Shown: in pieces, positions 23,267 through 49,482 of the stretch
How positions within the stretch are numbered: the stretch's first letter is position 1
How the letters are laid out: every line of letters starts with the position of its first letter
IMG/VR virus record: IMGVR_UViG_3300037225_000351
Span: 1 to 64,000 of that record
Direction: 5' to 3' (one strand)
DNA length: 64,000 nt
From: a virus
Made by a program: the position numbers and the translations under genes
Notes under the pieces: generated by a model
What the model was told of the DNA's origin: nothing
The model's database searches: none
What the model saw: only the letters and a program-made list of their open reading frames with translations

Positions 23267-25357
23267 TTAATAAACCAATTCATCCAAGTATTTCATCCAA
23301 AAAATCTTAGCCTTGGCAGATATCAAAGAACCAATCTTCTTCGGATCGATTTGATTTTTTATAATTGTATCTTTTTCCTCTTTCAAAATATCATTATATA
23401 GCCATCGTAAATATTCGCCTGTACTTTTTATGTCTAAAGGAATCTTCATCTCAATCATCTTATCAATTCCTTGTTTCATCCTATTTTCTGTTACTGCATA
23501 TTCAATAAACTCTTTTAATCCTGTAATCTCTTCAATATTAACAGAAGCCAATTTCTTTACTTTGGTACTACTATGCTTCTCGCCTTTCACCTTGAAGATA
23601 TATCTCTCTGATGGACCTAAGAGACATTCCCATACAATGCCTTCTCCCACCATTTTTTCTATTCCAAAATACTTTCCTACGGGGCATTCTGCTTCAACTT
23701 TCAATGTCATATCTACTAATTTATTCTGTGCTAATTCAGGACTATTGAAGTCTATCTCCATACTATAATGTTCGAACTGATAGATATTAAAGATTCTTTT
23801 ATCCTCCATCTTTAAATGAGAGAACTTTGAGAAATCATGATATATATCGTCAATCTTAATCCCAAACAATATCCACATTTTAGGAAGCTGAGATATTGCC
23901 ATACCCTTCTGTATCGATGAATTGTGAACTAAAATATTATTAGCAAAATAATTACTATTATCTTCTATTTGAATATCATATTTGAATTTTTTATATTCTT
24001 CTAATGGGATATACTTTTCTATATTTTCTATTTTTGCTTCAATTAAAGACTGATCATACTCATTTATATAATCATCCCACCATGATATTTTTTCGATTTT
24101 GTGAAAAATAGTTGGAAGTTTATAATTGAATTCTTTAAGAATATACGGAGATATTGTATAAAGAAAAGCGGAAGCTCCCTCAACTGTAAACCTTATTTCT
24201 GTTCCTAATTCTTTATCTTCATAAACTGTATAACAATAATACCCTTTTGAATTTAACCAAGATTCTATAAGTTTAACATTTTTTGTTCCAAACCCTTGGC
24301 AATGCAGTGAACATCTATCTTGTCTTCCTTCTTTATTATGGTGAATAATTGATCCATCATCCATATACCAAACCGCTAAAGCTAATGGACTTAATTTATT
24401 TAAATATGATATCGTAATGTGTTTTTTATTTTCTTTTTTATATAATTCTTTTCTTATATCTTTCATTTCTTCAAAAACTTTTATAGTAAATACTCTCATA
24501 TTACTGCCGTATCCGCTAATTCTTTTTTTTATCGATGTTATTATATTTTTAAAATTATCTTGAATAAAATCATTATAAAATTTTTGATTATCATCTGAAT
24601 GACTTATTCTAATTGATCCTGCATTATCTAAACACCCATCTCCTAATATTGTTCCCATTAAAAATTGTTTTACATTATAAGATAAAATTTTTCCTGGAAA
24701 TAAAAGTTTATCGTTAATTTTTAAATTATCTGCTTTTTTCTCTAATATTTTATTATTTTTTTTAATAAAAACACTATGTGTGGGTGTTACTATAAATCCA
24801 GTAAACCTTCCTCCTCTTTTTCTTCGTTGTACATTAATTTTTAACCATTCATTTGTTTTTCCATTTATATGGAAGTTTATTACTTTTTTGGGTTCTAATT
24901 TGTGTGTTGTTATATTATAAGATAAAATTTCAACCTTTAATTTTTTCCTAACAATTTTTCCAATTGGTAGTGTTGTTCCATTAGATAACAAAATAGGAGT
25001 ATTATACGGAAAACACCCGCAATATTCTCCATAGATCGCACAATAATCTTTAAATTCAATTCCTTCAAATAATTTCTTAACATCAATATTAGACATTGCA
25101 AGCATGAATCCATTGTTATCAGATCCCAATTCAAGAACTCTTTCACGACTTTGATATTCTATATGACCATCCTTATATAAAATTATTCCAGAATTCGTTC
25201 CATGTAATTTTATTGTTCCATTGAATGTAAGCTTGGGATAAGGCGAATCATGGCGATATATAGGTGCTTCTGTTTCATCCAGACCTTTATAGTCATGATG
25301 TACTTTTACCGATCTAATAGTATTACGAAATTGTCCTATATCAGTAAAAGTCTTCAT
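23267..25357 (-). CDS. RNA ligase 2 family protein (T4 Rnl2-like) with intein
   Basis: Start taken at ATG 25357 (AGGAG 6 nt upstream); the frame extends to 25423 but that part overlaps a promoter. The exteins total 331 residues, like T4 Rnl2 (334). Motif I is 'GTIKLHGTNSGIIL' (adenylated Lys), motif III 'YCAIYGEYCG', motif IV 'VGEGIVWECLL', motif V 'IFKVKGEKHSST'. It seals nicks in duplex RNA. An intein of 365 residues splits motif III from the next block (SSIQKGMAISQLP). Without splicing the enzyme would be dead. Confidence 0.9.
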   Translation of the reverse strand: MKTFTDIGQFRNTIRSVKVHHDYKGLDETEAPIYRHDSPYPKLTFNGTIKLHGTNSGIILYKDGHIEYQSRERVLELGSDNNGFMLAMSNIDVKKLFEGIEFKDYCAIYGEYCGCFPYNTPILLSNGTTLPIGKIVRKKLKVEILSYNITTHKLEPKKVINFHINGKTNEWLKINVQRRKRGGRFTGFIVTPTHSVFIKKNNKILEKKADNLKINDKLLFPGKILSYNVKQFLMGTILGDGCLDNAGSIRISHSDDNQKFYNDFIQDNFKNIITSIKKRISGYGSNMRVFTIKVFEEMKDIRKELYKKENKKHITISYLNKLSPLALAVWYMDDGSIIHHNKEGRQDRCSLHCQGFGTKNVKLIESWLNSKGYYCYTVYEDKELGTEIRFTVEGASAFLYTISPYILKEFNYKLPTIFHKIEKISWWDDYINEYDQSLIEAKIENIEKYIPLEEYKKFKYDIQIEDNSNYFANNILVHNSSIQKGMAISQLPKMWILFGIKIDDIYHDFSKFSHLKMEDKRIFNIYQFEHYSMEIDFNSPELAQNKLVDMTLKVEAECPVGKYFGIEKMVGEGIVWECLLGPSERYIFKVKGEKHSSTKVKKLASVNIEEITGLKEFIEYAVTENRMKQGIDKMIEMKIPLDIKSTGEYLRWLYNDILKEEKDTIIKNQIDPKKIGSLISAKAKIFWMKYLDELVY
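23921..25015 (-). mobile_element. LAGLIDADG intein in RNA ligase 2
   Basis: 365 residues from Cys ('CFPYNTPILLSNGTTLPIGK') to 'YFANNILVHN', followed by Ser +1. N-terminal splicing blocks include 'GFIVTPTHSVF' (block B, TxxH). Two LAGLIDADG helices, 'FLMGTILGDGC' and 'LALAVWYMDDG', make it an active-looking homing type. The C-terminal His-Asn plus Ser is canonical. It is inserted right after the conserved GEYCG of the ligase. Confidence 0.92.
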
Positions 25358-25372
25358 GTGCTCTCCTAATAC

Positions 25373-25401
25373 AATATAATATATGTGATTATTGAAGTCA
25401 A
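25373..25401 (-). promoter_or_regulatory. Sigma70 promoter TTGACT-17-TATATT
   Basis: Minus strand: -35 TTGACT at 25401-25396, 17-bp spacer, -10 TATATT at 25378-25373. The transcript would start about 10 nt before the RNA ligase 2 start codon, just upstream of or within its SD. The -35 overlaps the stop of the resolvase gene. Confidence 0.75.
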
Positions 25402-25916
25402 GATTTAATTTGCCTTCTGCCATATTCTGCTATGAGTAAGCTTTCGGCTCTACCATCTAACGCTCTTCCTCTTTTAGTCTCAAATTCACATTTAGGAAAT
25501 AACTCTTTAGCTTTTTGTACTGAAATTAATTTATCACTGCCAGCTCCGAAAACAACTTCCTTTTTCCATTTCTGAGGAGAGACCCAATTAATATCTACCT
25601 GAAAACAAGTCAAAAGCATCTCAATATTTCCAAGTCCTCTACCCATCGAAAACATAGAAGTGACCCCTTGAGCTGGCATGGCAGAAACCAATTCTACCCA
25701 GGCACTAACATTTTCTCTATCATCACAAATAGGATTATCTAAGATGTATTCCATTATATCTCGGAATGCTTCAATATCTATCATTGTTTTTATTTTTTTA
25801 TTTGATTTTTCTACTTTTATTGTAGGAATATCATAGACAGCATAAGGTCCATCTGTTTGTATAACTCCTATGCCTCCTTTCAACCCTGGGTCAAAGCCAA
25901 GAATTATTTTACTCAT
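25398..25916 (-). CDS. RuvC-like Holliday junction resolvase
   Basis: 172 residues from ATG 25916, which has a GGAG site; the frame to 25964 overlaps the preceding gene. 'IILGFDPGLKGGIGVIQ' carries the first RuvC Asp, 'AWVELVSAMPAQGVTSMFSM' the second acidic residue, and 'ALDGRAESLLIAEYG' the last Asp/Glu pair. Such enzymes cut branched DNA in phages lacking T4 endonuclease VII or alongside it. Sits between primase and RNA ligase genes. Confidence 0.8.
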   Translation of the reverse strand: MSKIILGFDPGLKGGIGVIQTDGPYAVYDIPTIKVEKSNKKIKTMIDIEAFRDIMEYILDNPICDDRENVSAWVELVSAMPAQGVTSMFSMGRGLGNIEMLLTCFQVDINWVSPQKWKKEVVFGAGSDKLISVQKAKELFPKCEFETKRGRALDGRAESLLIAEYGRRQIKS

Positions 25917-27015: not shown

Positions 27016-27228
27016 TTACTTTTTATTTTTCTTTTTATGAAATTCTTTTATTCTTAGATTTTCTTCTTGAACTATTGCAGCTAATAAAGTTGATTGATCC
27101 ACCAAACAAGTATCCCAAACAAATACTCCTCCTCCAATTTCATCACTATAATATATTCTACCTCCTACTGTATTATCTTTCCAATAAAGAGCACATCCAT
27201 TTGGCAACATAATATAATTTTTAATCAT
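27016..27228 (-). CDS. Hypothetical protein
   Basis: 70 residues, beta-rich start ('YIMLPNGCALYWKDNTVGGR'), Lys-rich end. Starts as an ATGA overlap with the gene upstream and ends next to the primase start. No family recognised. Confidence 0.5.
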   Translation of the reverse strand: MIKNYIMLPNGCALYWKDNTVGGRIYYSDEIGGGVFVWDTCLVDQSTLLAAIVQEENLRIKEFHKKKNKK

Positions 27229-27482
27229 TTTAACGCTTTATATGCAATTTCAATATCTTCGCATGTAGCTATTTTTATTATAAGAGCATACATAGTTTCA
27301 CATTCTTTTTCTTTTTTGGCTTTTTCTTTTTTCTCTACAAGGTCATTCTTATATTTTGTTAACCAGTCCAAAAATAGGTCTTTTCTATACGTTTGAGGTA
27401 TTCTTGGAAAATCATTAGAAAGAGATTCTATTCTTCCAACAATTAGAGTATTCGTGTATTCTCCTTTGTAATTATAAAACAT
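27225..27482 (-). CDS. Hypothetical protein, start displaced near IscB
   Basis: 85 residues if the ATG at 27482 is used, but this ATG lies inside the 3' end of iscB and has no SD. A good AAAGGAG sits a few codons inside the frame with no ATG after it. The original 5' end may have been changed when the IscB unit arrived. The body is helical and Lys/Glu rich ('YKNDLVEKKEKAKKEKECET'). No family recognised. Confidence 0.5.
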   Translation of the reverse strand: MFYNYKGEYTNTLIVGRIESLSNDFPRIPQTYRKDLFLDWLTKYKNDLVEKKEKAKKEKECETMYALIIKIATCEDIEIAYKALK

Positions 27483-28677
27483 TTTTAAATATTGATTTTG
27501 TATGGTAAACTTTTTGGATTTTCTTAATTCCTATTTGCAATTTTTTAGATTTATCAAAATATCTTATTATGCTTCCAAAAGAAGTGCTCCCCCTGGAAAT
27601 ATATTTTTTATTTTTAATAGTTACTATATCCCCCGGTCGTATTAAATATCTTTTTCTTCTAATTAATGGTTTTGATCCTTTTCTATTACATTGTAAAACT
27701 CTGTTGTTTCTATGCTTTTGTTTTAAAGATATTGAATTGATTTTGGTTTGACTCTGTCCCTTAGCAATTACAAAAGCATCATTAAAATGAGTTTTCTCTA
27801 ATCTCAATATATTTCTATTAATAAATGTCTCAGTACCATAAACTAATCGAGCTTCAGGAAATACTTCTCGATATTTCCATCTAACTACTAACATAAAAGT
27901 AGCATCTTTATATTGTCTGTTTATCTTTAAAGAATCAAATAATTTCTTTTGATGTAGTTTATAGTGACATTTCTTATGTAGTAAAGCTAAATTCTTTTCT
28001 CTATCAGTTCCACCTTTAGACCTTGGTATGATATGATGTATATGTGAAGAATTACTTTTACTAAGTTTGTCGCCGCATAATTGGCATTTACTTTCTTCAC
28101 GAGATATCAAGAAAGACCTCATATTTTGATATTCGTACATTGATCCTTGTTGATATTGAATTCCTTTAATGTCAGGATTTTCAATCTTCTGAATATCAAA
28201 ATTTCCTACTTCAATAAACAAATTCTTTATAGGAAGAATTTCTTTGATTTTATTTATTAACTTTATATGAGTATCAAATTTTCTTTGTATTGAAGGCGTT
28301 AAAGATCCTTTTGGTTTTGTTCTATTATTAAATCTTGGTTTTCTATACCATAATTTTCTTCTTCTAAGTCTTCGATACATACTTCTTTCTTTTAATCTTT
28401 CCGAAGTACGCAAATCTAAATCTAATGTCCCACATAGTATTTCTTTCTTAGAATCAATCACTGAAAATCCTACGAACTTAGATCCTGAATCGATTCCTAA
28501 ATTCATTTTACTTACTGATTCTCCAGTAGCCTTTGTCAACTGAATAACGAAAAATGGATTTGTCTTTACTACTTTTGCTTCTCCCTTCTTTAAAAGTAAA
28601 CGAGCTTTTCTTGATGAACAGGGCATTATAGGCTTGCCCCGTTGATTAAGAACATAAGCTTTATCAGAGACTCTCAA
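27472..28677 (-). CDS. iscB: IscB RNA-guided nuclease (OMEGA system)
   Basis: 401 residues from TTG 28677, which follows GGGAGG by 7 nt. The frame is open to an ATG at 28845, but those 56 codons overlap the predicted omegaRNA. Domains: PLMP ('VLNQRGKPIMPCSSRKARLL'), RuvC-I ('NLGIDSGSKFVGFSVID'), Arg-rich bridge helix ('RSMYRRLRRRKLWYRKPRF'), RuvC-II ('NLFIEVGNFD'), HNH ('CQLCGDKLSKSNSSHIHHII' to KNLALL and KKCHYKLH), RuvC-III ('KTHFNDAFVIA') and a C-terminal TAM-binding-like region. All catalytic residues appear intact. No TnpA is present, so it is a lone, phage-borne copy. Confidence 0.92.
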   Translation of the reverse strand: MRVSDKAYVLNQRGKPIMPCSSRKARLLLKKGEAKVVKTNPFFVIQLTKATGESVSKMNLGIDSGSKFVGFSVIDSKKEILCGTLDLDLRTSERLKERSMYRRLRRRKLWYRKPRFNNRTKPKGSLTPSIQRKFDTHIKLINKIKEILPIKNLFIEVGNFDIQKIENPDIKGIQYQQGSMYEYQNMRSFLISREESKCQLCGDKLSKSNSSHIHHIIPRSKGGTDREKNLALLHKKCHYKLHQKKLFDSLKINRQYKDATFMLVVRWKYREVFPEARLVYGTETFINRNILRLEKTHFNDAFVIAKGQSQTKINSISLKQKHRNNRVLQCNRKGSKPLIRRKRYLIRPGDIVTIKNKKYISRGSTSFGSIIRYFDKSKKLQIGIKKIQKVYHTKSIFKNVL

Positions 28678-28922
28678 GCCCTGACCTCCCTTATGCTGGA
28701 GTAGATCCACATCGAGGTTGTTTAAAGCCAGTACTTTATTCTGTACACTGAGATTTTCATCTCTGTTTAATACAGAATTTTCAGAGCTACAGACTTGTGG
28801 AGCATCCGTAGGTGAGTTCTGGAACTTTACTTTAAACTTCTGCATATTAGTTATTACCTTTTACGCCCTCTAATCAACTCTTACGTTGTACTTCACAGTA
28901 CAAACTCATAGTTACCTATGAG
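28678..28922 (-). ncRNA. Probable omegaRNA (HEARO-like) of IscB
   Basis: Begins 2 nt after the gene 32 stop codon. Two perfect 7-bp hairpins with GNRA loops follow each other: CTCATAG-GTAA-CTATGAG (28922-28905) and TTGTACT-GTGA-AGTACAA (28903-28886). Further in are a GAGAT-GAAA-ATCTC hairpin (28763-28750) inside a long-range TCTGTA/TACAGA pair, and an ACCTC/GAGGT pair ending at the iscB SD. Position directly 5' of iscB and the density of tetraloop stems fit omegaRNA. Boundaries are estimated; the guide would lie further 5', in gene 32. Confidence 0.6.
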
Positions 28923-28924
28923 CA

Positions 28925-29809
28925 TTATGATTCATCTTTAATCTTGCTAAATATATCATCTGCATCTTCTGCGGAAGCAACCTCTAATGCATCAGGCGTA
29001 ACATCTTCATCAGCAGCATCTTCCGAAGGAGCTTGCTGTTGTGTGTTAGTTGCTCCATGAATTGTAGTAAACTTTGAAAACTTCTTTGCAATGTTATCAT
29101 AAGGCTCAAAGTTTGATTCTGCAATAAAAGGTTTCAACTTATAACACTTATTCATAATAGCTTCAATTGCTTCATCAGTAGCAGCAATAGGAGTCAATGA
29201 TTCTTCAAAGCTACAAGAAGAGTAATCATTTTGTGCTACTTTATCTGATTCAAGCTTAACTTTCTTAATACTAAGCTTAAAATTTGTACCTTTATAGTAA
29301 TCCCAATAATCTGCTTGTTTTGTAAGAGAGTCTGCTGGTGGGTTTGCTTTCTCCATCATTTTCTCATAGACTTTCTTTCCATAACGAAAGATAAAAACCT
29401 TTCCTTCGTTTTCAGGATGTACATGGTCTTTAAGAATGAGAACATTTGAATAATAATTAATCTTACGACAACGTTTCTGTTGGAGTTTCGTATATTCGTC
29501 CCAATGTTCTTTATTAGTTTCACAGACAGGACAAGGAAGACCAATCGATGTAGGGCAATTAACGTTCATCCATTTCTTATTTTCGGAAATGTTGTGATAG
29601 TAAACTGGTCCAACAAAGGGGAAATCTGCATCATTAAGCAATCCAGCAGCATCTCTTGATGGAGGAAGGAAGCGCATAAGTACATTAACTGTTCCTTGTT
29701 TGCTAAATTCCGGTGAGTAAATCCTTTCATCTTTCTTAAAACCGACATTTACTGGTGTTTCTGTCATTTTCTTCTTAGACTCTGACCAATCGAAATCAAA
29801 TTTTCGCAT
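28925..29809 (-). CDS. 32: Single-stranded DNA-binding protein (gp32)
   Basis: 294 residues (T4 gp32 is 301). The N-terminal basic segment, 'TVNVLMRFLPPS' of the OB fold, a zinc site 'CPTSIGLPCPVCETNKEH' (replacing T4 His-Cys-Cys-Cys spacing), aromatic 'DYWDYYKGTNFKLSIKKVKL', and an acidic tail ending 'EDADDIFSKIKDES'. It coats ssDNA and coordinates gp59, gp43 and UvsX. Promoter at 29881-29909 directly upstream. The IscB unit begins right after its stop. Confidence 0.92.
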   Translation of the reverse strand: MRKFDFDWSESKKKMTETPVNVGFKKDERIYSPEFSKQGTVNVLMRFLPPSRDAAGLLNDADFPFVGPVYYHNISENKKWMNVNCPTSIGLPCPVCETNKEHWDEYTKLQQKRCRKINYYSNVLILKDHVHPENEGKVFIFRYGKKVYEKMMEKANPPADSLTKQADYWDYYKGTNFKLSIKKVKLESDKVAQNDYSSCSFEESLTPIAATDEAIEAIMNKCYKLKPFIAESNFEPYDNIAKKFSKFTTIHGATNTQQQAPSEDAADEDVTPDALEVASAEDADDIFSKIKDES

Positions 29810-32832: not shown

Positions 32833-34401
32833 TCAATATAATGCTGTGTTAATTGACTTGAAGAAGATATTGAGAATTTTAGATTTACATAAAGATTCAA
32901 CATCAGGAAATATTGAACAAGCCATTCTTTGAATAAATGGATGTGTAATATATCTTTGTTCATCTGAAATAACTATAACTTGCTTCTTCATTTCATAGGC
33001 TATTCCTGTTTCTAAGATGGTATTTCCACACCATATAGCCTTTCCATTTCTTCTAACATATAAAGAATGATTAGGAACTTCACAACAATAAACTTTTTCA
33101 TGATATTCAACTGTATTTCTATTAGATCGTAAAATTTTATAAAAATGTGTTCGAGAAACATTTACATCATAATGATATCTGTCGCTTTTAATTAATCTGT
33201 TTTCTCTTTTAAGAATATTTCCTTCTCTTTTTCTTTTTCTTATATTACAAGTAAAACCCAATTTCAAAACAATCTCTTGAACATCGTCCATTAATTTTTT
33301 AGAACTAGAATAATATGAAACAAACTTATTATTATGTATGCAACCGTCTCCTAATACCATACTATTAAATAAAATATTTAATTGTCTTTTTGATACTTGC
33401 TTATACTCTTTTGGAATAAATTTATTATAACTATATTTTCCAAATGTTTTATCTAAATATAATGCAATTTGTTTATCAGAAATTACAAACGACCCACCAT
33501 TATAATATCCATGACATCCTATTTTTTCAATTGCCTCTTTAATTTTTATTAAATTGTCTTGTTTGGTTTGTGAAATGAAGATTCTGTATTCTTCATAATC
33601 ATAACCGTGTTTGTTTGTAGATGATTTTGATACGCACCCTTCTGATATATACCAACCCAAAAAGTTTAACCAATCGTCCATTAATATTTTTCTTTCGGAA
33701 ACTATAAGATTTTTCTCAATACACGAACAATAAGAAGGAATAGTAATGTACTTTGTTTCTTGCCCTTCCCAATTAGAGCTTTTAGGAACATAGATTTTTT
33801 TGGGTATAGAATCTGCTCTAATAAATTTTCTTTTTTCTAAAAATTTATCCATACACACAATATTATGATTTGGGGTTATCATTAAATCGATTTTTTGTGA
33901 TTTAAAATTATACATATAGCCATAAGAATTTTCACACTCATAAAATTTTGTGGGGTGTTGTAACTCAATCTGATTTGAATCCGATAATGTAAACACTTTT
34001 AAATTGTTATCTGCTTTTTGAACAAAGTCTTTAATATTCACCCAACCATTTTCTGTCAAAATATCAGTGTCGTTTGAATAGCAACCAATCGGGGGTCTTT
34101 TATTTTCATTTGTCTTATTAAATGTATTGAAATTGCTAATAATAATATCACAGTTTTTAATAGACAAGTAATCTTTATTAAATATCAAAGCATCACATAA
34201 ACGAACCTCTGGGGATTCTCCTATGAGAGGGTCAAAGAATTCAATACCATAATCTAATATTGTTCCTGATTGTGTATGATAATTCTGATAATAATCTCTA
34301 ATAAATTTACGCCATTCCATACATTCAGGGATTAGTTCTTTACCATGATTCTGAAATTCAATATAACCTGCGAGATATACTTTTAAAAAATTATTCTGCA
34401 C
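32833..34401 (-). CDS. Nucleoside 2-deoxyribosyltransferase-like protein with intein
   Basis: Start taken at GTG 34401 (AAAGGAG 7 nt upstream), giving 168 extein residues. 'FLKVYLAGYIEFQNHGKEL' opens the fold, 'CDIIISNFNTFNK' is the central strand, and after splicing 'PPIG' joins 'TILETGIAYEMKKQVIVISD', the GTxxE motif with the catalytic Glu. Such enzymes swap bases between deoxynucleosides or cleave dNMPs for salvage or for making modified nucleotides. The intein of 354 residues splits the catalytic loop, so activity needs splicing. Confidence 0.8.
   Translation of the reverse strand: MQNNFLKVYLAGYIEFQNHGKELIPECMEWRKFIRDYYQNYHTQSGTILDYGIEFFDPLIGESPEVRLCDALIFNKDYLSIKNCDIIISNFNTFNKTNENKRPPIGCYSNDTDILTENGWVNIKDFVQKADNNLKVFTLSDSNQIELQHPTKFYECENSYGYMYNFKSQKIDLMITPNHNIVCMDKFLEKRKFIRADSIPKKIYVPKSSNWEGQETKYITIPSYCSCIEKNLIVSERKILMDDWLNFLGWYISEGCVSKSSTNKHGYDYEEYRIFISQTKQDNLIKIKEAIEKIGCHGYYNGGSFVISDKQIALYLDKTFGKYSYNKFIPKEYKQVSKRQLNILFNSMVLGDGCIHNNKFVSYYSSSKKLMDDVQEIVLKLGFTCNIRKRKREGNILKRENRLIKSDRYHYDVNVSRTHFYKILRSNRNTVEYHEKVYCCEVPNHSLYVRRNGKAIWCGNTILETGIAYEMKKQVIVISDEQRYITHPFIQRMACSIFPDVESLCKSKILNIFFKSINTALY
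33022..34083 (-). mobile_element. LAGLIDADG intein in deoxyribosyltransferase-like gene
   Basis: 354 residues from Cys ('CYSNDTDILTENGWVNIKDF') to 'YVRRNGKAIWCGN', followed by Thr +1. Block B is 'LMITPNHNIVCMD'. Homing helices: 'WLNFLGWYISEGC' and 'LFNSMVLGDGC'. The penultimate residue is Gly rather than the usual His, the same pattern as the polymerase intein. The insertion site is between G and T of the catalytic GTILE. Confidence 0.88.
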
Positions 34402-34561
34402 TCTTATTCTCCTTTGCACTAATAGATTCTAAAAGTTCTTTCCTAAATTTACTTCTCAAAGATCTTGGAGTTTTATTCCATGTCCTCTTAAATTTTTTCT
34501 TAAAGTTCTTTGATTCACTTAGACATGCCTTCTTGATAATCTTAGCTACTTTTCCTCTCAT
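34391..34561 (-). CDS. Small basic hypothetical protein
   Basis: 56 residues, strongly basic ('ESKNFKKKFKRTWNKTPRSL'), possibly nucleic-acid binding. Its last codons contain the SD and GTG start of the next gene. No family recognised. Confidence 0.5.
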   Translation of the reverse strand: MRGKVAKIIKKACLSESKNFKKKFKRTWNKTPRSLRSKFRKELLESISAKENKSAE

Positions 34562-38217: not shown

Positions 38218-38246
38218 AGTATAATGTTTATTTCTTTGATTGTCAA
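38218..38246 (-). promoter_or_regulatory. Sigma70 promoter TTGACA-17-TATACT
   Basis: Minus strand: TTGACA at 38246-38241, 17-bp spacer, TATACT at 38223-38218. The -35 overlaps the last codons of the methyltransferase gene; the phosphoesterase gene follows with an AAAGGA site. Confidence 0.85.
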
Positions 38247-39301
38247 GTAGTTTCTTTAAAATAATCTTCAAGACTGCAAGAATCTTCTATAGGATTATGT
38301 ATAACCCTTGGAGCTTCTATTATATCTTTCATTTTCTCACCTGCCATTATAGCAAGTCCTAATTGTTCTACTATTTGAGGAACTACTGCATTTCCAAGTG
38401 CTTTTAGTCTTTTAGCTCTGTCCATCCTTGGGGGAAACCCATCAGATACTCGACAAAGTTCGGCTGCAACTTCAGGCCAAGGTCTGTTCCAATTAGTACA
38501 CATGGAAGATCCCGTTGATGATCCTTTATTTGTTTCAATGCTTGTTCTTGTGTTAGATTCATATTCTTGTAATCTCTGGCCGATGGGGTTGGAAGTCTCT
38601 TTATCGCATCCTTCAAATCCGCTCTGTATGATCCTGGAAGATTTGGATTCCTGTTTCCATCCTTCTTCAATCTTGGTATTCTCCCTTGTCCCATACTGTC
38701 TATTGCTTGTGGAGTCGGAAGCATTGCTATTCTGGATGTTAGACTCGATGGTCCACATCTCCCCGGAGCTGTCCTTTCCAATATATGTGCTTTGCTGTTC
38801 AGAATTTCTAATGCTCTTGGAGTGGGCAATAATCCAGATTCTGTCTCTTCTATGTGGGGCGTTGAGGCCGCAAGCTGGAATAATGAATGGTTGAAGTTCG
38901 TATCCAATTTCTTCCAATTCAGAAAGCAACTTGTCGAAAACCAATCCGTGTTCAAGAGTAAGTAAGCCACGGACGTTCTCAAACAAACACCATGTGGGCT
39001 TGACATTTCGTACAATTCTAAAAGTTTCTCCCCAGAGCCAACGGTCATCTCCTGTGCCTTTTCGCTTCCCGGCTTGACTTGCTGGCTGACAGGGAGGGCT
39101 TGCCCAGATGACATCAATTCTTCCAAACTCATCTCCTTTGACTCCATATATATCTCCCATTCTCTTTACTTTAGGCCAATGTTTCTCTAAAACTTTTTGG
39201 CAGAATTTATCGATTTCAACTTGCCCTCCACATTTTAGGCCCGCCATTTCCAACCCGTAATCTGCTCCACCAATACCAGAAAATAAACTTAGAAATCTCA
39301 T
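38243..39301 (-). CDS. DNA cytosine-5 methyltransferase
   Basis: 352 residues. Motif I 'FLSLFSGIGGADYGL', motif IV 'WASPPCQPASQAGKR' with the catalytic Cys, motif VI 'CLFENVRGLL', motif VIII 'HRRDRIWIIAHS', motif X 'KALGNAVVPQIVEQL'. The target-recognition part is short and of low complexity (Ser, Asn, Glu, Thr rich). It methylates C in DNA, probably to avoid restriction. Its middle is overlapped by a 247-codon frame (38404-39147), and local base composition is less AT-rich than around it. Overlaps gene 43 start region by 4 nt. Confidence 0.9.
   Translation of the reverse strand: MRFLSLFSGIGGADYGLEMAGLKCGGQVEIDKFCQKVLEKHWPKVKRMGDIYGVKGDEFGRIDVIWASPPCQPASQAGKRKGTGDDRWLWGETFRIVRNVKPTWCLFENVRGLLTLEHGLVFDKLLSELEEIGYELQPFIIPACGLNAPHRRDRIWIIAHSKSIRNSEQQSTYIGKDSSGEMWTIESNIQNSNASDSTSNRQYGTRENTKIEEGWKQESKSSRIIQSGFEGCDKETSNPIGQRLQEYESNTRTSIETNKGSSTGSSMCTNWNRPWPEVAAELCRVSDGFPPRMDRAKRLKALGNAVVPQIVEQLGLAIMAGEKMKDIIEAPRVIHNPIEDSCSLEDYFKETT
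38404..39147 (-). CDS. Nested second-frame protein of the LPTP repeat family
   Basis: 247 codons entirely inside the methyltransferase gene, same strand, +1 frame. It is not random-looking: 'SGLLPTPRALEI', 'AMLPTPQAID', 'RLPTPSARDYKN' repeat an LPTPxA(x)D motif, 'FLNWKKLDTNFNHSLFQLAA' precedes them, and the end is 'LQPNFVEYLMGFPQGWTELK'. I recall proteins with exactly these features as common phage proteins next to or overlapping Dcm genes. SD-like GGGAG precedes ATG 39147, and AAAGGAG precedes an in-frame TTG. Function unknown. Confidence 0.5.
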   Translation of the reverse strand: MESKEMSLEELMSSGQALPVSQQVKPGSEKAQEMTVGSGEKLLELYEMSSPHGVCLRTSVAYLLLNTDWFSTSCFLNWKKLDTNFNHSLFQLAASTPHIEETESGLLPTPRALEILNSKAHILERTAPGRCGPSSLTSRIAMLPTPQAIDSMGQGRIPRLKKDGNRNPNLPGSYRADLKDAIKRLPTPSARDYKNMNLTQEQALKQIKDHQRDLPCVLIGTDLGLKLQPNFVEYLMGFPQGWTELKD

Positions 39302-42300
39302 GCAAACATTTCCTCTAATGAATTAGTTTCCAAAGTTATTTTTCCCCATCCAAGGGAATGGAAAAATCTTCCTATTACATCCTCAAATGTTATTTCCCAT
39401 TGTTTTTCATAATTCACATTAAAAAGTTCATTAAATTTATCTGGCCATTTACTAATCATTGCTATTACTTCCTGGTTAATAAAATTATTATCATAAACAT
39501 AAACAAACTTAATTTTCTCTCTATCATCTATATATTTTAATGGTAGTTTATAAAAGCCAACAACATAATTATAGTTAATGCTTGCTTTGTTGCGTTGTGG
39601 TGTGCCTTTATCATAACTCAAACCAGTATTTAAATATTCTTGTATTGATTTGGAATATTTCTGATATTCTTTTATTCCAGATGGTTTTGCTATTTCATCT
39701 GGAGAGCACTTAAAGAACTCCAATTTAATTTTCCTAATATAATCTATAACTTTACTTTTATCCTCTGTATCAAATATCATCTTTACAACTTCTTTAATTT
39801 TTTCCCTACAGAAGCGCGGGGTATCAGTCCTAACAATTTCTATACCTGTGATTGCTAATTTAGGAATATCAAATCTCTGACCTTTCTTTTCTATAATCTC
39901 ATCGACGTATTTCTTCATCGCTATTATAAGTTTTTTAGTAATAATCTTTTCTGCTTTGAATTTAAATATCTGCTTAATCCCATATCTCTCAGCATACAGA
40001 TTAAGAATCCTATCATAGAACGGATTAAAGAGTCTATCATTTATCTTATGAGTAAACTCTAAAAATTCTTTATTATCTTTAAATTCTAATCCAATAGTGT
40101 CTAACATTTCCTGAAAGCATATATGTCCAGAATCAGTATCAATCAAACATACTACTTCTTTTTTTAATGGAACTACATCTTTAACTCTAACATATTCTGG
40201 AATAATTTTCTGAGCTATCAAATGCCAATTCTCTAAGAGATATGTATTAGTCTTATTAGTTAAGTATTTTATCAGATCCCTTCCACATGCTGTTACCGTC
40301 CTTGAAATATCAATATTATAAAGACAAAAATATGGTGATCCTGTTGCGCCATATATACTTTGGCCCGCCCACATAAACTTACCATTCCGCCCAACATAAA
40401 CAGTATGATTATCCTTAACTGTTAAATTATATACTTTATCCTTATAATATTCTTTTTTTATTTGATATTGTTTTATTGTAAAATCTGTTTTAATAATCCA
40501 TATTCTATAACAACCACTATCAATACTATAATGAGGCATGAATCCTAATAGTAAACATAGTTGCATATAATCATTAAATAATTTTTTATATTTTAAAGAA
40601 ATATTATATCTAAATGAATTACGTGTTTTATTTCCATCTCCTAAATACATATATTCAAATAGTAAATTATAGTCAATAACATTATCAAATTTATTATTTA
40701 AAATGTGTTTATCGTATTTTTTCCCAAAATTGTCCTTAACTATTTGATATAATAAATCGGAACATATACATTGGTTTTTTTTGTCTCTAATTTTTCCCAT
40801 CTTATCATCTGTTATATTATTAAAAAGATCGTTGATTTTTTCATATATAATAGGATGGACTTTTTTTGATTGAGTTATTGTGATTTTTTTTGTTAAGCCT
40901 CTTACATTTCCATTACTATAATTTTTTTTCACATTTTCATATAAACTACCTTCGGCTAAATATATGCCAATAAATTTAGAAAATTCTTTAATATTTATTT
41001 TTAATAACTGTAAAGAACATCTTTTATTTCTTTTGTGTCTAGCATATATTATAAAGCCAAAATCATAACAGTTTCTTATTTGTTCGTTTGAAGGAATATC
41101 TTTAATTAGAGCCATTTTTAATCTGCACTCAGATTGGATCTGTTCAAGATTTAAAAAAACGCCTTTATTATTTAATTCTGTTCTAACTAATCTAAGATCG
41201 TGATTATTAGGATAAGATATTAAATATTCATATTCATCTTTATTATCTATATATTCATTTAAATATATAAATTCCTCTTTGTATTCTTTAATTATTTTAT
41301 TATGAATTGGAAATTTTTTTCTGCCTTTAAATTCTAAAAGTTCCTTGGCTTTTATTGTTTGTATTATTCTTTTTTTAAATTTTGTTTCTAAAAGATTATG
41401 TTCTGGTGTAACTTTTAAATCTATTTTTTTAGATTTTAAACAGACTAGCTCCCCAACATAATCATATTCATAGGTTTTTTCAACCGGCTTAATTTCTAAA
41501 TTATGATTTTCTTTATTAATAGAATAGACTAAATCTCCTACCTTGACATCTTTAATAAATTTTTCACCATCTACAGTCATTATTTTTGTATCTTTATGGA
41601 AACAATTCATATAAATTTTCTTTACATATTGATTCCGATCATAATACTTTGCAGTTCCTTTTTCTTCTTCTATTTGTGCTTTAAGATAAGGAATCTGTGC
41701 TAACTCTATTTTATACCTCTTAGAAATTTCTTTATCATCTAATCCTTCATCTACTCCAATGCAAACATTATACTTAGTAACATTCTCTACACGTCTATCA
41801 AATATATTTTTTATGATCTCTGGTAGTATTCCTAATTGTTTCTTATAGTAAATTCCTTCAATTGGTGTTTTAATAAGATCTGAATTATCTAATGGATCGT
41901 GTACTAATGTCTCCGGGGAAAGGTTAAAAGCCATCTGGACGTGGGGGTACATCGAAACAATATCAAAGTTCTCACACCATTTGTAATAACCTTCCATTGC
42001 CATCACATGAGCACCTTCAAAATCTCTATGACCTTCTGATTTCTGTCTGTCTGGAATTACTATATTTTTTCTGTGACAATATTTGAGAACTTGTCCTGTA
42101 ATTAAATTGACGGAACTAAAAATCTTTTCAAGAGGGATCAAAGAATCGTGGCACATACTAATAGCAAGCTCAAATAATCTAAGCTTATCATCGAGTTTCT
42201 TTACGAGTAGAACATCTTGGATATTATACTCTACAAATTTATTCCAATCAGTTTTCCATATATCATTAATTGTTCCTTCAAAAGTTATCTTGCCTTCTTT

Positions 42301-43116
42301 AATTTCCTCTAAGCATATCGCATCAAGACTATATTTCTCTCTTTTTGTACGAGTAAAGTTCTTATATAAATCCAAGTAATCAAGTGTTGCGAGTCCTGCA
42401 AGAGAGTAACCACCACCTTCGACATGATATCCGTCCTGATGTGAGTTCTCTCTATGAATGTTTAAAGGGGATAATGAAAGATCCAATTGCAGAATCTCGC
42501 ATCGTTTGATAATATAAGGAATATCGAAGACCTTACAAAACCAACCACTCAACACGGACAACCTACATTTTCTAAAAAACTCTATAAATTTTGTAAGAAG
42601 AACAGTCTCATCGGCGCAATAGATATAATTTTTTACAGATTCATCATTCCCTGTATATTCCTGAGTTCCGAATGTATAAACTTGATCTTTTTTACTTAAC
42701 CATAGAGATATAAGATTGATTGGACAGTTAGGATTTTCTGGTTTTGACCACGATCCATCACTACGAACTTCTATATCTATTATTCCAATATTAAATTGTT
42801 TGATGTCTGATTTTATTATTTGATTACCGTAAGTCTTTTGTAGGAATTTGATTTCTTGGGAGATCTTAGCTTCACAAGTTTTAATGCCACACTCTAAAAG
42901 GGATTTCACACCATCGTAAGACTCTGAAATTTCTTTTAGAACTGGCAGACCATAGATATCTTTGATTGCTGATTTGTTTTCTTTATCATAGATGTAGTAG
43001 TCAAATTCTGCCTCTACTTCATCATGTCTATCCTTTCCTGCATCGTCTATATAGTAATGATGAAGCTTGGAGTGGTACATATCATAGTAGACGTTCTTAA
43101 ATGCAATTGGAGACAT
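39298..43116 (-). CDS. 43: Family B DNA polymerase (gp43) with intein
   Basis: Start at ATG 43116, which overlaps the TAA of the upstream gene; the frame extends to 43200 inside that gene. Exteins total 857 residues (T4 gp43 is 898). Exonuclease motifs 'IGIIDIEVRSDGSW', 'LSGWFCKVFDIPYIIKR' and 'YNIQDVLLVKKLD'; polymerase motif A 'FDIVSMYPHVQMAFNLSPET', motif B 'YVKKIYMN' + 'SIYGATGSPYF' joined after splicing, motif C 'VVCLIDTDSGHI'. The C-terminus 'NSLEEMFA' resembles a clamp-binding peptide. The 415-residue intein sits in motif B. Confidence 0.95.
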   Translation of the reverse strand: MSPIAFKNVYYDMYHSKLHHYYIDDAGKDRHDEVEAEFDYYIYDKENKSAIKDIYGLPVLKEISESYDGVKSLLECGIKTCEAKISQEIKFLQKTYGNQIIKSDIKQFNIGIIDIEVRSDGSWSKPENPNCPINLISLWLSKKDQVYTFGTQEYTGNDESVKNYIYCADETVLLTKFIEFFRKCRLSVLSGWFCKVFDIPYIIKRCEILQLDLSLSPLNIHRENSHQDGYHVEGGGYSLAGLATLDYLDLYKNFTRTKREKYSLDAICLEEIKEGKITFEGTINDIWKTDWNKFVEYNIQDVLLVKKLDDKLRLFELAISMCHDSLIPLEKIFSSVNLITGQVLKYCHRKNIVIPDRQKSEGHRDFEGAHVMAMEGYYKWCENFDIVSMYPHVQMAFNLSPETLVHDPLDNSDLIKTPIEGIYYKKQLGILPEIIKNIFDRRVENVTKYNVCIGVDEGLDDKEISKRYKIELAQIPYLKAQIEEEKGTAKYYDRNQYVKKIYMNCFHKDTKIMTVDGEKFIKDVKVGDLVYSINKENHNLEIKPVEKTYEYDYVGELVCLKSKKIDLKVTPEHNLLETKFKKRIIQTIKAKELLEFKGRKKFPIHNKIIKEYKEEFIYLNEYIDNKDEYEYLISYPNNHDLRLVRTELNNKGVFLNLEQIQSECRLKMALIKDIPSNEQIRNCYDFGFIIYARHKRNKRCSLQLLKINIKEFSKFIGIYLAEGSLYENVKKNYSNGNVRGLTKKITITQSKKVHPIIYEKINDLFNNITDDKMGKIRDKKNQCICSDLLYQIVKDNFGKKYDKHILNNKFDNVIDYNLLFEYMYLGDGNKTRNSFRYNISLKYKKLFNDYMQLCLLLGFMPHYSIDSGCYRIWIIKTDFTIKQYQIKKEYYKDKVYNLTVKDNHTVYVGRNGKFMWAGQSIYGATGSPYFCLYNIDISRTVTACGRDLIKYLTNKTNTYLLENWHLIAQKIIPEYVRVKDVVPLKKEVVCLIDTDSGHICFQEMLDTIGLEFKDNKEFLEFTHKINDRLFNPFYDRILNLYAERYGIKQIFKFKAEKIITKKLIIAMKKYVDEIIEKKGQRFDIPKLAITGIEIVRTDTPRFCREKIKEVVKMIFDTEDKSKVIDYIRKIKLEFFKCSPDEIAKPSGIKEYQKYSKSIQEYLNTGLSYDKGTPQRNKASINYNYVVGFYKLPLKYIDDREKIKFVYVYDNNFINQEVIAMISKWPDKFNELFNVNYEKQWEITFEDVIGRFFHSLGWGKITLETNSLEEMFA
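40360..41604 (-). mobile_element. LAGLIDADG intein in DNA polymerase motif B
   Basis: 415 residues from Cys ('CFHKDTKIMTVDGEKFIKDV') to 'YVGRNGKFMWAGQ', followed by Ser +1 of SIYG. Block B 'DLKVTPEHNLLETK'. Homing helices 'FSKFIGIYLAEGS' and 'LFEYMYLGDGN'. The insertion point is the KxxMN/SxYG site used by inteins in many B-family polymerases. The C-terminal residues are Gly-Gln instead of His-Asn; the shared NG-W-G ending links it to the intein at 33022. Confidence 0.92.
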
Positions 43117-43496
43117 TAGGTAGGTATTTCCTTTTTTAATTTTTTTCTTTGATAATTTTTCTTGTTGTATGCTTTTCTTTCTTCTATGGTCATACTCCAA
43201 TATCTTTTTTTGTCTCGTTCTCTATAATATTTTCTTGATTCTTCTATGTTTTCGTGGTAGCGTTTTCTTTGATATTCTCTTTGATAATTGTCTACTTTAT
43301 CTTTATTTTTAGGATAATAATCGGTTAAAAAATATGTATAATGCTTTTCGTTTACTGATTTTTTATTTTTCTGATACCATGCTTTAAAGTATTTGTTATT
43401 AACTGCTGTATAATAATTATTTGCATAAGCATTTGTTCTGCCATTCTCTTGAGTTTCCCATGCTTTAACACTTTCAACATATGAAGTTGCTTTCAT
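43116..43496 (-). CDS. Basic Tyr/Lys-rich protein, possible homing-gene remnant
   Basis: 126 residues from ATG 43496 (AAAGGA upstream). Extremely rich in Lys, Tyr, Asn and Arg ('KYFKAWYQKNKKSVNEKHYT'), with the spaced helices seen in the N-terminal DNA-binding part of HNH proteins such as the one at 59172, but without an HNH core. Its TAA overlaps the gene 43 ATG, so it is coupled to the polymerase. It may be a truncated homing gene or a translational regulator. Confidence 0.5.
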   Translation of the reverse strand: MKATSYVESVKAWETQENGRTNAYANNYYTAVNNKYFKAWYQKNKKSVNEKHYTYFLTDYYPKNKDKVDNYQREYQRKRYHENIEESRKYYRERDKKRYWSMTIEERKAYNKKNYQRKKLKKEIPT

Positions 43497-48158: not shown

Positions 48159-48551
48159 TTATTCTTCTTCAGAACAATAATCTACAGTATCACTAGCATA
48201 TATTGCGTCCCTGCTCGTAAGATAATCAAGCGAAGTGAATAAAGTATCTCTTTTTTTATTTGATATAATACACTGGAGCACAGAATTCCAAACGATCTGG
48301 CTGAAATACGAAAATGGGTTTCGATATTTGACGTCGTAATTTTTAAGATAGCGGACACAATAATAACAACTCAAGCTAACAAATTCTGATTTTCTGTCAT
48401 CTGTATATTTTATAAAAGAGAGTTTTTGTAGCATGTGTTCTGAAATGCTTATAAAAATTTTTCCGAGTTCATTGTAGTCTTTTCTATTGCCCGTATTTTT
48501 ATAACTCACAAGCAAATCATAAAATCGCTGGTTGTCTACGTAATTAGGCAT
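48159..48551 (-). CDS. 55: Late sigma factor (gp55-like)
   Basis: 130 residues (T4 gp55 is 185, so this one is short). Sigma region-2 style core: 'NYVDNQRFYDLLVSYKNTGN' at the front, 'EFVSLSCYYCVRYLKNYDVK' and 'RNPFSYFSQIVWNSVLQCI', which parallels gp55 '[20 protein letters not shown]'. gp55 directs RNA polymerase to TATAAATA late promoters; at least six such sites are in this window. Position between 46 and 47 fits T4-like synteny. Its ATG overlaps the end of the GIY-YIG gene. Confidence 0.82.
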   Translation of the reverse strand: MPNYVDNQRFYDLLVSYKNTGNRKDYNELGKIFISISEHMLQKLSFIKYTDDRKSEFVSLSCYYCVRYLKNYDVKYRNPFSYFSQIVWNSVLQCIISNKKRDTLFTSLDYLTSRDAIYASDTVDYCSEEE

Positions 48552-49482
48552 TTCTTATATTTTCCTTTTCTATTTTTGGAAGCAATTCCCTTTTTATTAT
48601 AATTCCTTTATATGTAGTAATGTTTGATTTTGTACTTTTAAATCGCATCCATATTGTTTTTCTTTGTGATATATTAAAAATGGTATAATAATTTTCATTG
48701 TTACTTAACGTATATTTAAATTTTTTTGGTCTTTTCCCTTTAATTCTTTCTATAAATTTTTTTATATTTTCTTCGGATATTCCGTTTTTCTTTTTTGTTT
48801 CGCTTATTTTTCTTTTGGTTTCACTAGAACACACAACCCCTTTATTCCAAGGAATGTGTCCTTTCTTTGCAATACTCATTTTTAATCTTGCTTCAACAGA
48901 TAATTTTTTCCCTCTATTACGATTTCCAATTTTGATTTTTGTGGCAAGTGTATGGGTTCTGTTTTTGCCTATTATTCTCAATTTTCTTTTATGTTTATCT
49001 GTGTGTTTAAATCCTGCACTTCCTTTTCCTCCTTTGGCAATATTATATCCTATTTTTGGATCAGTAGCACTAAGAGCAGCAATCCAATACGTTTCTCTAT
49101 CATCAATATTAGCAGAAGTATTATATTCAATAGTTTCTCTATAAAAGTTTTCATATCCATATTTTTTAATTGCTAATTTTATTTTTATTCCACTTCCTAA
49201 ATAAGTTTTAAAATCTTTAGTTAATATTTTCTTTTGACCTACGTAAATCTTCTTATTGATCTTACAAATAGTCACATAAGTAATATAAGTCATAGGAATA
49301 ATTGTCTCAATATAGACTCCAGAAACAGTAAAATCTATATCTGCGCTTAAAGAAGGAATATCAACAGCAGAAACATAATAGGAATAAGTAGGAGCAGATA
49401 CTCCAGATACATTTAAATTTTCCATAAGATTTGAACCTTTCATAAATAAGAGATAAGAGGACAGCAACCGGAAACCTTTCAC
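48544..49482 (-). CDS. GIY-YIG homing endonuclease with extra N-terminal segment
   Basis: The frame opens with GTG at 49482; ATG 49443 or 49425 (AAAGG upstream) are more likely starts. The GIY-YIG domain begins near residue 69: 'YVTICKINKKIYVGQKK', then 'IKKYGYENFYRETIEY' and the catalytic Glu in 'DDRETYWIAALSAT', then NUMOD3-like repeats ('GFKHTDKHKRKLR', 'GKKLSVEARLKMSIAKKGH') and a helix-turn-helix end. Residues 20-63 are a Ser/Val-rich beta segment foreign to such nucleases, perhaps captured from an invaded gene. A late promoter lies upstream. Confidence 0.82.
   Translation of the reverse strand: MKGFRLLSSYLLFMKGSNLMENLNVSGVSAPTYSYYVSAVDIPSLSADIDFTVSGVYIETIIPMTYITYVTICKINKKIYVGQKKILTKDFKTYLGSGIKIKLAIKKYGYENFYRETIEYNTSANIDDRETYWIAALSATDPKIGYNIAKGGKGSAGFKHTDKHKRKLRIIGKNRTHTLATKIKIGNRNRGKKLSVEARLKMSIAKKGHIPWNKGVVCSSETKRKISETKKKNGISEENIKKFIERIKGKRPKKFKYTLSNNENYYTIFNISQRKTIWMRFKSTKSNITTYKGIIIKRELLPKIEKENIRNA

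Follow-up and report, generated by a model that had tools for sequence, protein, structure and literature searches.

Results

Organization of the IscB locus

We analyzed a 64,000-nucleotide stretch of viral DNA (positions 1 to 64,000 of the 68,122-base IMG/VR record IMGVR_UViG_3300037225_000351; hereafter, the window) in which a gene for IscB, an RNA-guided nuclease related to the ancestor of Cas9, and its omegaRNA, a member of the HEARO family, lie directly behind a gene 32-like gene in a T4-like replication cluster. As argued below from the comparison of phages, this unit of approximately 1.46 kb is probably a transposase-free, RNA-guided homing element. The locus comprises the following features, all on the minus strand and given in window coordinates, with the supporting evidence in parentheses:

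28925-29809, minus strand: gene 32-like single-stranded DNA-binding protein (gp32), whose final codon and stop (TCA TAA) form part of the omegaRNA 5' strand (PF08804, 7.5e-29; phrog_224, 9.6e-57)
28932-28951, minus strand: presumed guide, TTTAGCAAGATTAAAGATGA, encoding the conserved gp32 C-terminus (position relative to the HEARO start; 17/20 identical in the related contig L001)
28701-28931, minus strand: omegaRNA scaffold (HEARO) that includes the GNRA hairpins 28922-28905 and 28903-28886 (full-length RF02033 match; covariation)
28678-28845, minus strand: reading frame that starts at a conserved ATG and stays open across the omegaRNA and into IscB, a 56-codon N-terminal extension (clade frame counts; indels)
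27472-28677, minus strand: IscB core with PLMP, RuvC, bridge helix, HNH and C-terminal region (NF040563, 297.6 bits; alignment of six phage IscBs; dN/dS)
28144-28656, minus strand: RRXRR region with RuvC-I, bridge helix and RuvC-II (Pfam PF14239, 3e-56, residues 64-234)
27949-28086, minus strand: HNH nuclease domain (Pfam PF01844, 7.3e-14, residues 254-299)
27778-27789, minus strand: RuvC-III catalytic H..D, KTHFNDA (aligned with solved IscB chains; invariant in the six-relative alignment)
27225-27482, minus strand: 85-amino acid open reading frame (ORF) with a start that overlaps the stop of IscB (44% identity with the ORF that follows gp32 in L001)

The protein and its RNA are intact

A preliminary description of this DNA had reported a complete IscB with all catalytic residues in place, and profile searches bear this out. 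The 457-amino acid reading frame (28845-27472, minus strand) is open and uninterrupted, and it matches the NCBIfam guided_IscB equivalog NF040563 over residues 64-360 (297.6 bits, E-value 9.6e-89, cut-off 175) as well as the Pfam RRXRR and HNH models. The top PDB matches of the protein are solved IscB chains (1.9e-37 to 9.4e-25), with which its catalytic motifs align. The catalytic residues (RuvC-I D119, RuvC-II E212, HNH H270/H271, RuvC-III H353 and D356) are unchanged in six phage relatives; they are D63, E156, H214, H215, H297 and D300 when counted from the TTG codon at 28677, near which the conserved core starts and upstream of which lies GGGAGG. A CRISPR/Cas9 identity was rejected, the Cas9d model scoring 28.8 bits against a cut-off of 375. 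For comparison, we took 54 IscB loci from IMG/VR and searched 49 IscB-bearing viral records for HEARO and for the Y1 transposase TnpA; in the IscB tree, the window IscB sits in a supported clade of 30 members, 28 of them viral.

The preliminary description had named the absence of a HEARO structure beforehand as refuting evidence; the covariance search located a full-length match to Rfam HEARO RF02033 at 28931-28701 on the minus strand (92.7 bits, E-value 1.9e-18, model positions 1-211 of 211, cut-off 83). It is the sole Rfam match within 24-33 kb (9 kb searched) and the sole HEARO in the record, and a chance RNA structure was rejected on the strength of this match. The run of GNRA-capped hairpins described earlier as lying directly 5' of IscB proved real, the hairpins CTCATAG-GTAA-CTATGAG (28922-28905) and TTGTACT-GTGA-AGTACAA (28903-28886) being the first two of the omegaRNA; its placement needs correction, since the omegaRNA overlaps the ORF, which opens at the ATG at 28845, and thus does not lie wholly 5' of it.

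Among 20 aligned clade members, 34 of the 46 consensus pairs of the omegaRNA present a compensatory change, with weak covariation in the P1 helix taken alone (two of six pairs). The ratio of nonsynonymous to synonymous substitution rates (dN/dS) for IscB falls mostly between 0.05 and 0.39, and mostly below 0.3, at saturated dS. Judged by ratios well below 1, though with dS saturated, and by the compensatory RNA pairs, IscB and the omegaRNA are both under selection.

The frame upstream of the core is open over at least 165 nt in 26 of the 30 clade members, as against 1 and 0 for the other two frames, and many members carry a Shine-Dalgarno-like AAGG or AGGA ahead of the ATG. Downstream of the ATG, each of the five indels has a length divisible by three, compared to 11 of 46 upstream of it (counts that are not fully independent). 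Within the N-terminal extension, it is the third codon position that is least variable (entropy 0.59, versus 0.72 and 0.80), so that protein-level selection on the extension was rejected and it seems to be the open frame, rather than the peptide, that is kept. The same trait is found in 16 of 40 IscBs outside the clade and is therefore not special to it. In a promoter and terminator scan, promoter-like matches were no commoner than in shuffled sequence.

The presumed guide is the 3' end of gene 32

The structure of OgeuIscB places a guide of about 17 nt at the 5' end of its RNA, of which 16 nt are enough, together with a target-adjacent motif (TAM) of sequence NNRR; mismatches at TAM-proximal positions 1-14 abolish cutting (PMC9640706). 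Following the same paper for placement and length, we took as the guide the 16-20 nt located 5' of the omegaRNA scaffold. The gp32 gene ends GAT GAA TCA TAA at 28925 and HEARO position 1 corresponds to 28931. Hence, the last codon and the stop of gp32 fall inside the first strand of the omegaRNA, and the guide would consist of gp32 coding sequence.

The unit occupies scattered sites, mostly without a transposase

HEARO is present in 47 of the 49 viral records, and Y1 TnpA (PF01797) exceeds the cut-off in 8 of them. The lack of TnpA noted in the preliminary description holds for the whole 68-kb record; likewise, TnpA was not found above the cut-off in any of the tested viral records of the window's clade, nor in the staphylococcal phages tested. 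Two loci were set aside: Clostridioides phage pCD1602_4, whose relatives share the left flank only and in which TnpA adjoins IscB, and Nodularia phage kac68v162, in which IscB adjoins a gene annotated as a transposase and which is of the ordinary transposon kind.

When the window was compared by blastn to its closest relatives, similarity was limited to the omegaRNA and IscB, leaving the flanks unmatched. Diverse genes lie upstream of the unit: gp32 in the window, a baseplate-hub-like protein (L002), a virion structural protein (L003), a baseplate protein (L004) and a primase (L028). In the tree L003 and L015 are sisters, and both follow homologues of one gene (55% identical), which makes theirs the same site in diverged phages. 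The bases left of the unit vary among relatives (ATGA, AGAA, TTGA, CAGC, TCTA) and the sequence past the IscB stop has little in common, the ends of the unit being exactly mapped in the staphylococcal phages only. None of the 49 IscB-bearing viral records other than the window's carries a gp32 of this type, that search having picked up L001 alone. Several units may occur in one phage: the L041 record (G031) holds three HEARO copies and the L024 record (G016) two.

Empty alleles of the window locus and of a related locus

The setting between gene 32 and the primase gene was recognized correctly at the outset: beyond gp32, the genes following IscB are the 85-amino acid ORF, a 70-amino acid ORF and the primase, and a DnaB-type helicase and a UvsX-like recombinase were also identified as replication neighbors. 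In contig L001, 74% identical to the window at the DNA level, the locus lacks IscB and reads gp32, a hairpin spacer, a homologue of the 85-amino acid ORF, a 150-amino acid ORF and primase. Its gp32 ends ...KIKDED*, and at the guide position 17 of 20 bases are identical and are followed, in the -1 register, by AAGA. The 150-amino acid ORF (L001 9189-9641), macro-domain-like by eye, takes the place of the window's 70-amino acid ORF, and this intergenic stretch is therefore generally variable.

A second scan of viral contigs, using a two-sequence gp32 alignment, again returned L001 and nothing else, and a search through the upstream genes of L002 and L004 yielded no usable empty site for either. 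L111 is an empty counterpart of L005: a homologous upstream gene is directly followed by the gene that in L005 comes after IscB and a small ORF (46% and 48% identical).

Occupied and empty sites in cultured Staphylococcus phages

Searches with tblastn revealed IscB genes in Twortvirinae phages of Staphylococcus, where they bear HNH or hypothetical-protein annotations, and the annotation of one such phage record places HEARO exactly at the junction. The units of JDF86 and Golestan are 91.8% identical and occupy unrelated sites. A third site, near ribonucleotide reductase genes, holds the unit in VL10 and six CIFT phages, and a fourth holds a decayed IscB unit in RSM-J51Sa (L084 2506-3189). Phage PSU4 carries a gene annotated as an HNH endonuclease at a place neighboring the RSM-J51Sa unit (L113 306-1448), and a group I intron, a second kind of mobile element, lies at the tail tube gene of JDF86 (L073 8616-8848), a few kb from IscB.

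At these staphylococcal sites, relatives without the unit present flanks that are 91-99.8% identical, and at all four the guide is identical between occupied and empty alleles at 19-20 of 20 positions. With the guide taken to end one base before the model start, one of four registers examined, the four bases following it conform to NNRR in all five empty alleles, L001 included (GGAG, GGGG, GGAG, AAGG, AAGA), and never in the five occupied ones. Given the choice among four registers and the purine-rich nature of the sites, this pattern is suggestive of a TAM, and no proof of one.

The overlaps at the staphylococcal sites measure 4, 4, 9 and 19 bp; the short ones, of 4-9 bp and located at ribosome-binding sites, hint at microhomology as a way of reaching new sites. 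A 19-bp repeat flanks the unit in VL10, rebuilding the target and its putative motif on the right side, where the copy reads TGACAAATTCGAAGAAAAAAGG instead of TGACAAATAGTAAAAAAAAAGG and encodes unchanged residues (AGT to TCG and one AAA to AAG). Such recoding would spoil pairing of the rebuilt target with the element's own guide and fits a need to escape its own nuclease; alternatively, the recoded copy may have arrived by co-conversion from a donor phage. Behind the inserted IscB, the RusA-like gene has a recoded start (Ser AGT to TCG) at L074 5241-5270 and, in a CIFT phage, at L081 2827-2860.

Other genes of the replication region

The replication region of the window holds three inteins in addition to IscB. 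An RNA ligase-like gene (23267-25423, minus strand) is split by an intein bearing a LAGLIDADG endonuclease, a nucleoside 2-deoxyribosyltransferase-like ORF (32833-34419, minus strand) contains a probable intein with a LAGLIDADG domain, and a 1300-amino acid family B DNA polymerase ORF (39298-43200, minus strand) has a likely intein at residues 548-933. A C-5 cytosine methyltransferase gene (38243-39301, minus strand) adjoins the DNA polymerase. Furthermore, a 312-amino acid ORF with a NUMOD3 motif (48544-49482, minus strand) is probably another free-standing homing endonuclease.

Discussion

A model for RNA-guided homing

The preliminary description had left the unit as either a domesticated or a homing nuclease. 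The comparison of phages favors homing and speaks less for domestication, because the unit is found at unrelated sites in different phages, because empty alleles exist and because DNA similarity stops at the borders of the unit. In the model that we propose, transcription from gp32 would yield an RNA that opens with the 3' end of gp32, serving as guide, and continues with 230 nt of scaffold. During co-infection, IscB and this RNA would cut phage genomes free of the element, where a TAM adjoins the gp32 3' end, and repair with the element-bearing genome as template would then install a copy, as with the free-standing homing endonucleases of T4. The carrier genome would be spared, since the insertion parts the guide sequence from the TAM. 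Because the guide is flanking DNA and no part of the element, retargeting would be automatic, each new insertion being aimed at its own empty site. The model builds on an intact protein and RNA, the lack of TnpA, scattered sites and empty alleles and, in relatives, on the match of guide to target and the separation of guide from the putative motif; RNA processing, cleavage, biased inheritance and the reaching of new sites are steps that we infer.

Several observations weigh against this model. The window has a single empty allele, the distant L001, which has three guide mismatches and a different spacer, so that it establishes neither how exactly the insertion took place nor that L001 would be cut. 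The IscBs at the sites with clean empty alleles come from a remote lineage (branch length 2.74) whose HEARO match, at 32 bits, is below the cut-off, and the NNRR agreement comes from a register picked among four at purine-rich ribosome-binding sites. Cleavage, the RNA and inheritance stand as predictions of the model, which leaves unexplained how the element reaches a new site without TnpA. Lastly, homing has already been argued for TnpB and IscB as a means of holding a transposon in place.

Alternative explanations

One alternative reads the unit as a non-autonomous IS200/IS605 passenger, moved in trans by a TnpA of the host or a prophage, with the role of IscB limited to keeping it at the donor site. 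In the classical setting, IscB is cargo of IS200/IS605 elements, some relatives are linked to TnpA (the 8 of 49 viral records mentioned above), most bacterial genomes holding relatives have a TnpA somewhere, and jumps to new sites would be accounted for. We nevertheless consider this explanation unlikely: neither the record nor the tested viral records of the clade contain TnpA, no common tetranucleotide is apparent left of the unit, little sequence is shared past the IscB stop and the staphylococcal overlaps differ in length.

A domesticated weapon or regulator, which the phage would use against competitors at gp32 (marker exclusion), against host DNA or to control gp32, and for which mobility would be unimportant, is an improbable account of a unit that is not fixed at gp32. 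A domesticated gene is expected to stay in place, whereas the relatives lie at unrelated genes, the other searched IscB-bearing viral records have no gp32 of this type, L001 does without the unit and one staphylococcal copy is decaying. Still, the unit sits behind an essential and abundantly expressed gene, cutting gp32 of an uninvaded rival would harm that rival, and T4 SegG is reported to promote marker exclusion, according to a title in the reference list of PMC2988022. That IscB and its omegaRNA are by now an inert relic or passenger is very improbable in view of the intact ORF with all its catalytic residues, the HEARO match above the cut-off, the low dN/dS values and the compensatory RNA changes, even though activity of the window's unit is a prediction and one related element, that of RSM-J51Sa, has visibly decayed.

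Relationship to known systems

The homing element proposed here consists of a protein and an RNA that belong to a known family. HEARO nucleases in viral genomes, mostly without TnpA, have been reported (PMC9755519), so that the presence of IscB in a phage is not new in itself; the addition here is the transposase-free homing reading in phages. Like OgeuIscB and the HEARO enzymes of PMC9755519, the window's OMEGA nuclease combines PLMP, RuvC, bridge helix and HNH with a guide 5' of a HEARO scaffold. It differs from them in its position behind gp32 in a T4-like replication cluster, in its transposase-free viral clade and in the frame that remains open through the omegaRNA.

A homing-like retention has been proposed for TnpB and IscB in transposons (Meers 2023, as cited in PMC11870625); in the account given there, IS200/IS605 transposons use a flank-derived guide and the nuclease acts on the empty donor site, a behavior likened to homing endonucleases. 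In contrast to such transposons, the window's unit has no TnpA and no sign of a shared target tetranucleotide, and it is carried by a phage, where co-infection often brings full and empty alleles together.

The T4 homing endonuclease gene segG has its place between genes 32 and 59, with gene 32 as the target of its product, and several T4 endonuclease genes lack promoters of their own and depend on upstream ones for transcription (PMC2988022). The window resembles segG in having a free-standing endonuclease gene behind gene 32, gene 32 as its presumed target, an absence from related phages and the make-up of a presumably promoter-less cassette transcribed from phage genes upstream (PMC2988022). 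SegG, however, belongs to the GIY-YIG enzymes and finds its target by protein recognition, and free-standing enzymes of this kind cleave far away from the gene that encodes them, whereas the window encodes an RNA-guided HNH/RuvC nuclease whose presumed target lies right at the insertion border. At the gene 32 hot spot that it shares with T4, the window would hold a counterpart of segG that is guided by RNA.

Implications

Homing can be tested directly by co-infection of cultured Staphylococcus phages that carry or lack the unit (JDF86 versus phiSA_BS1; Silviavirus VL10 versus Romulus), and S. carnosus TM300 is a host on which related Silviaviruses are propagated. More tentatively, it is possible that phages host widespread transposase-free, RNA-guided homing elements that retarget at each landing; that in one large clade the scaffold doubles as the leader of the nuclease frame, so that guide maturation and translation compete on one transcript; and that some carriers shield a rebuilt target by synonymous changes. 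Protein homing endonucleases are bound to the site they recognize and must evolve to use a new one. If the homing model is true, a flank-derived guide frees the element from this fixed-site limit, and the unit shows what an OMEGA nuclease can do without a transposase, a plausible intermediate between the cargo of transposons and RNA-guided enzymes that stand alone.
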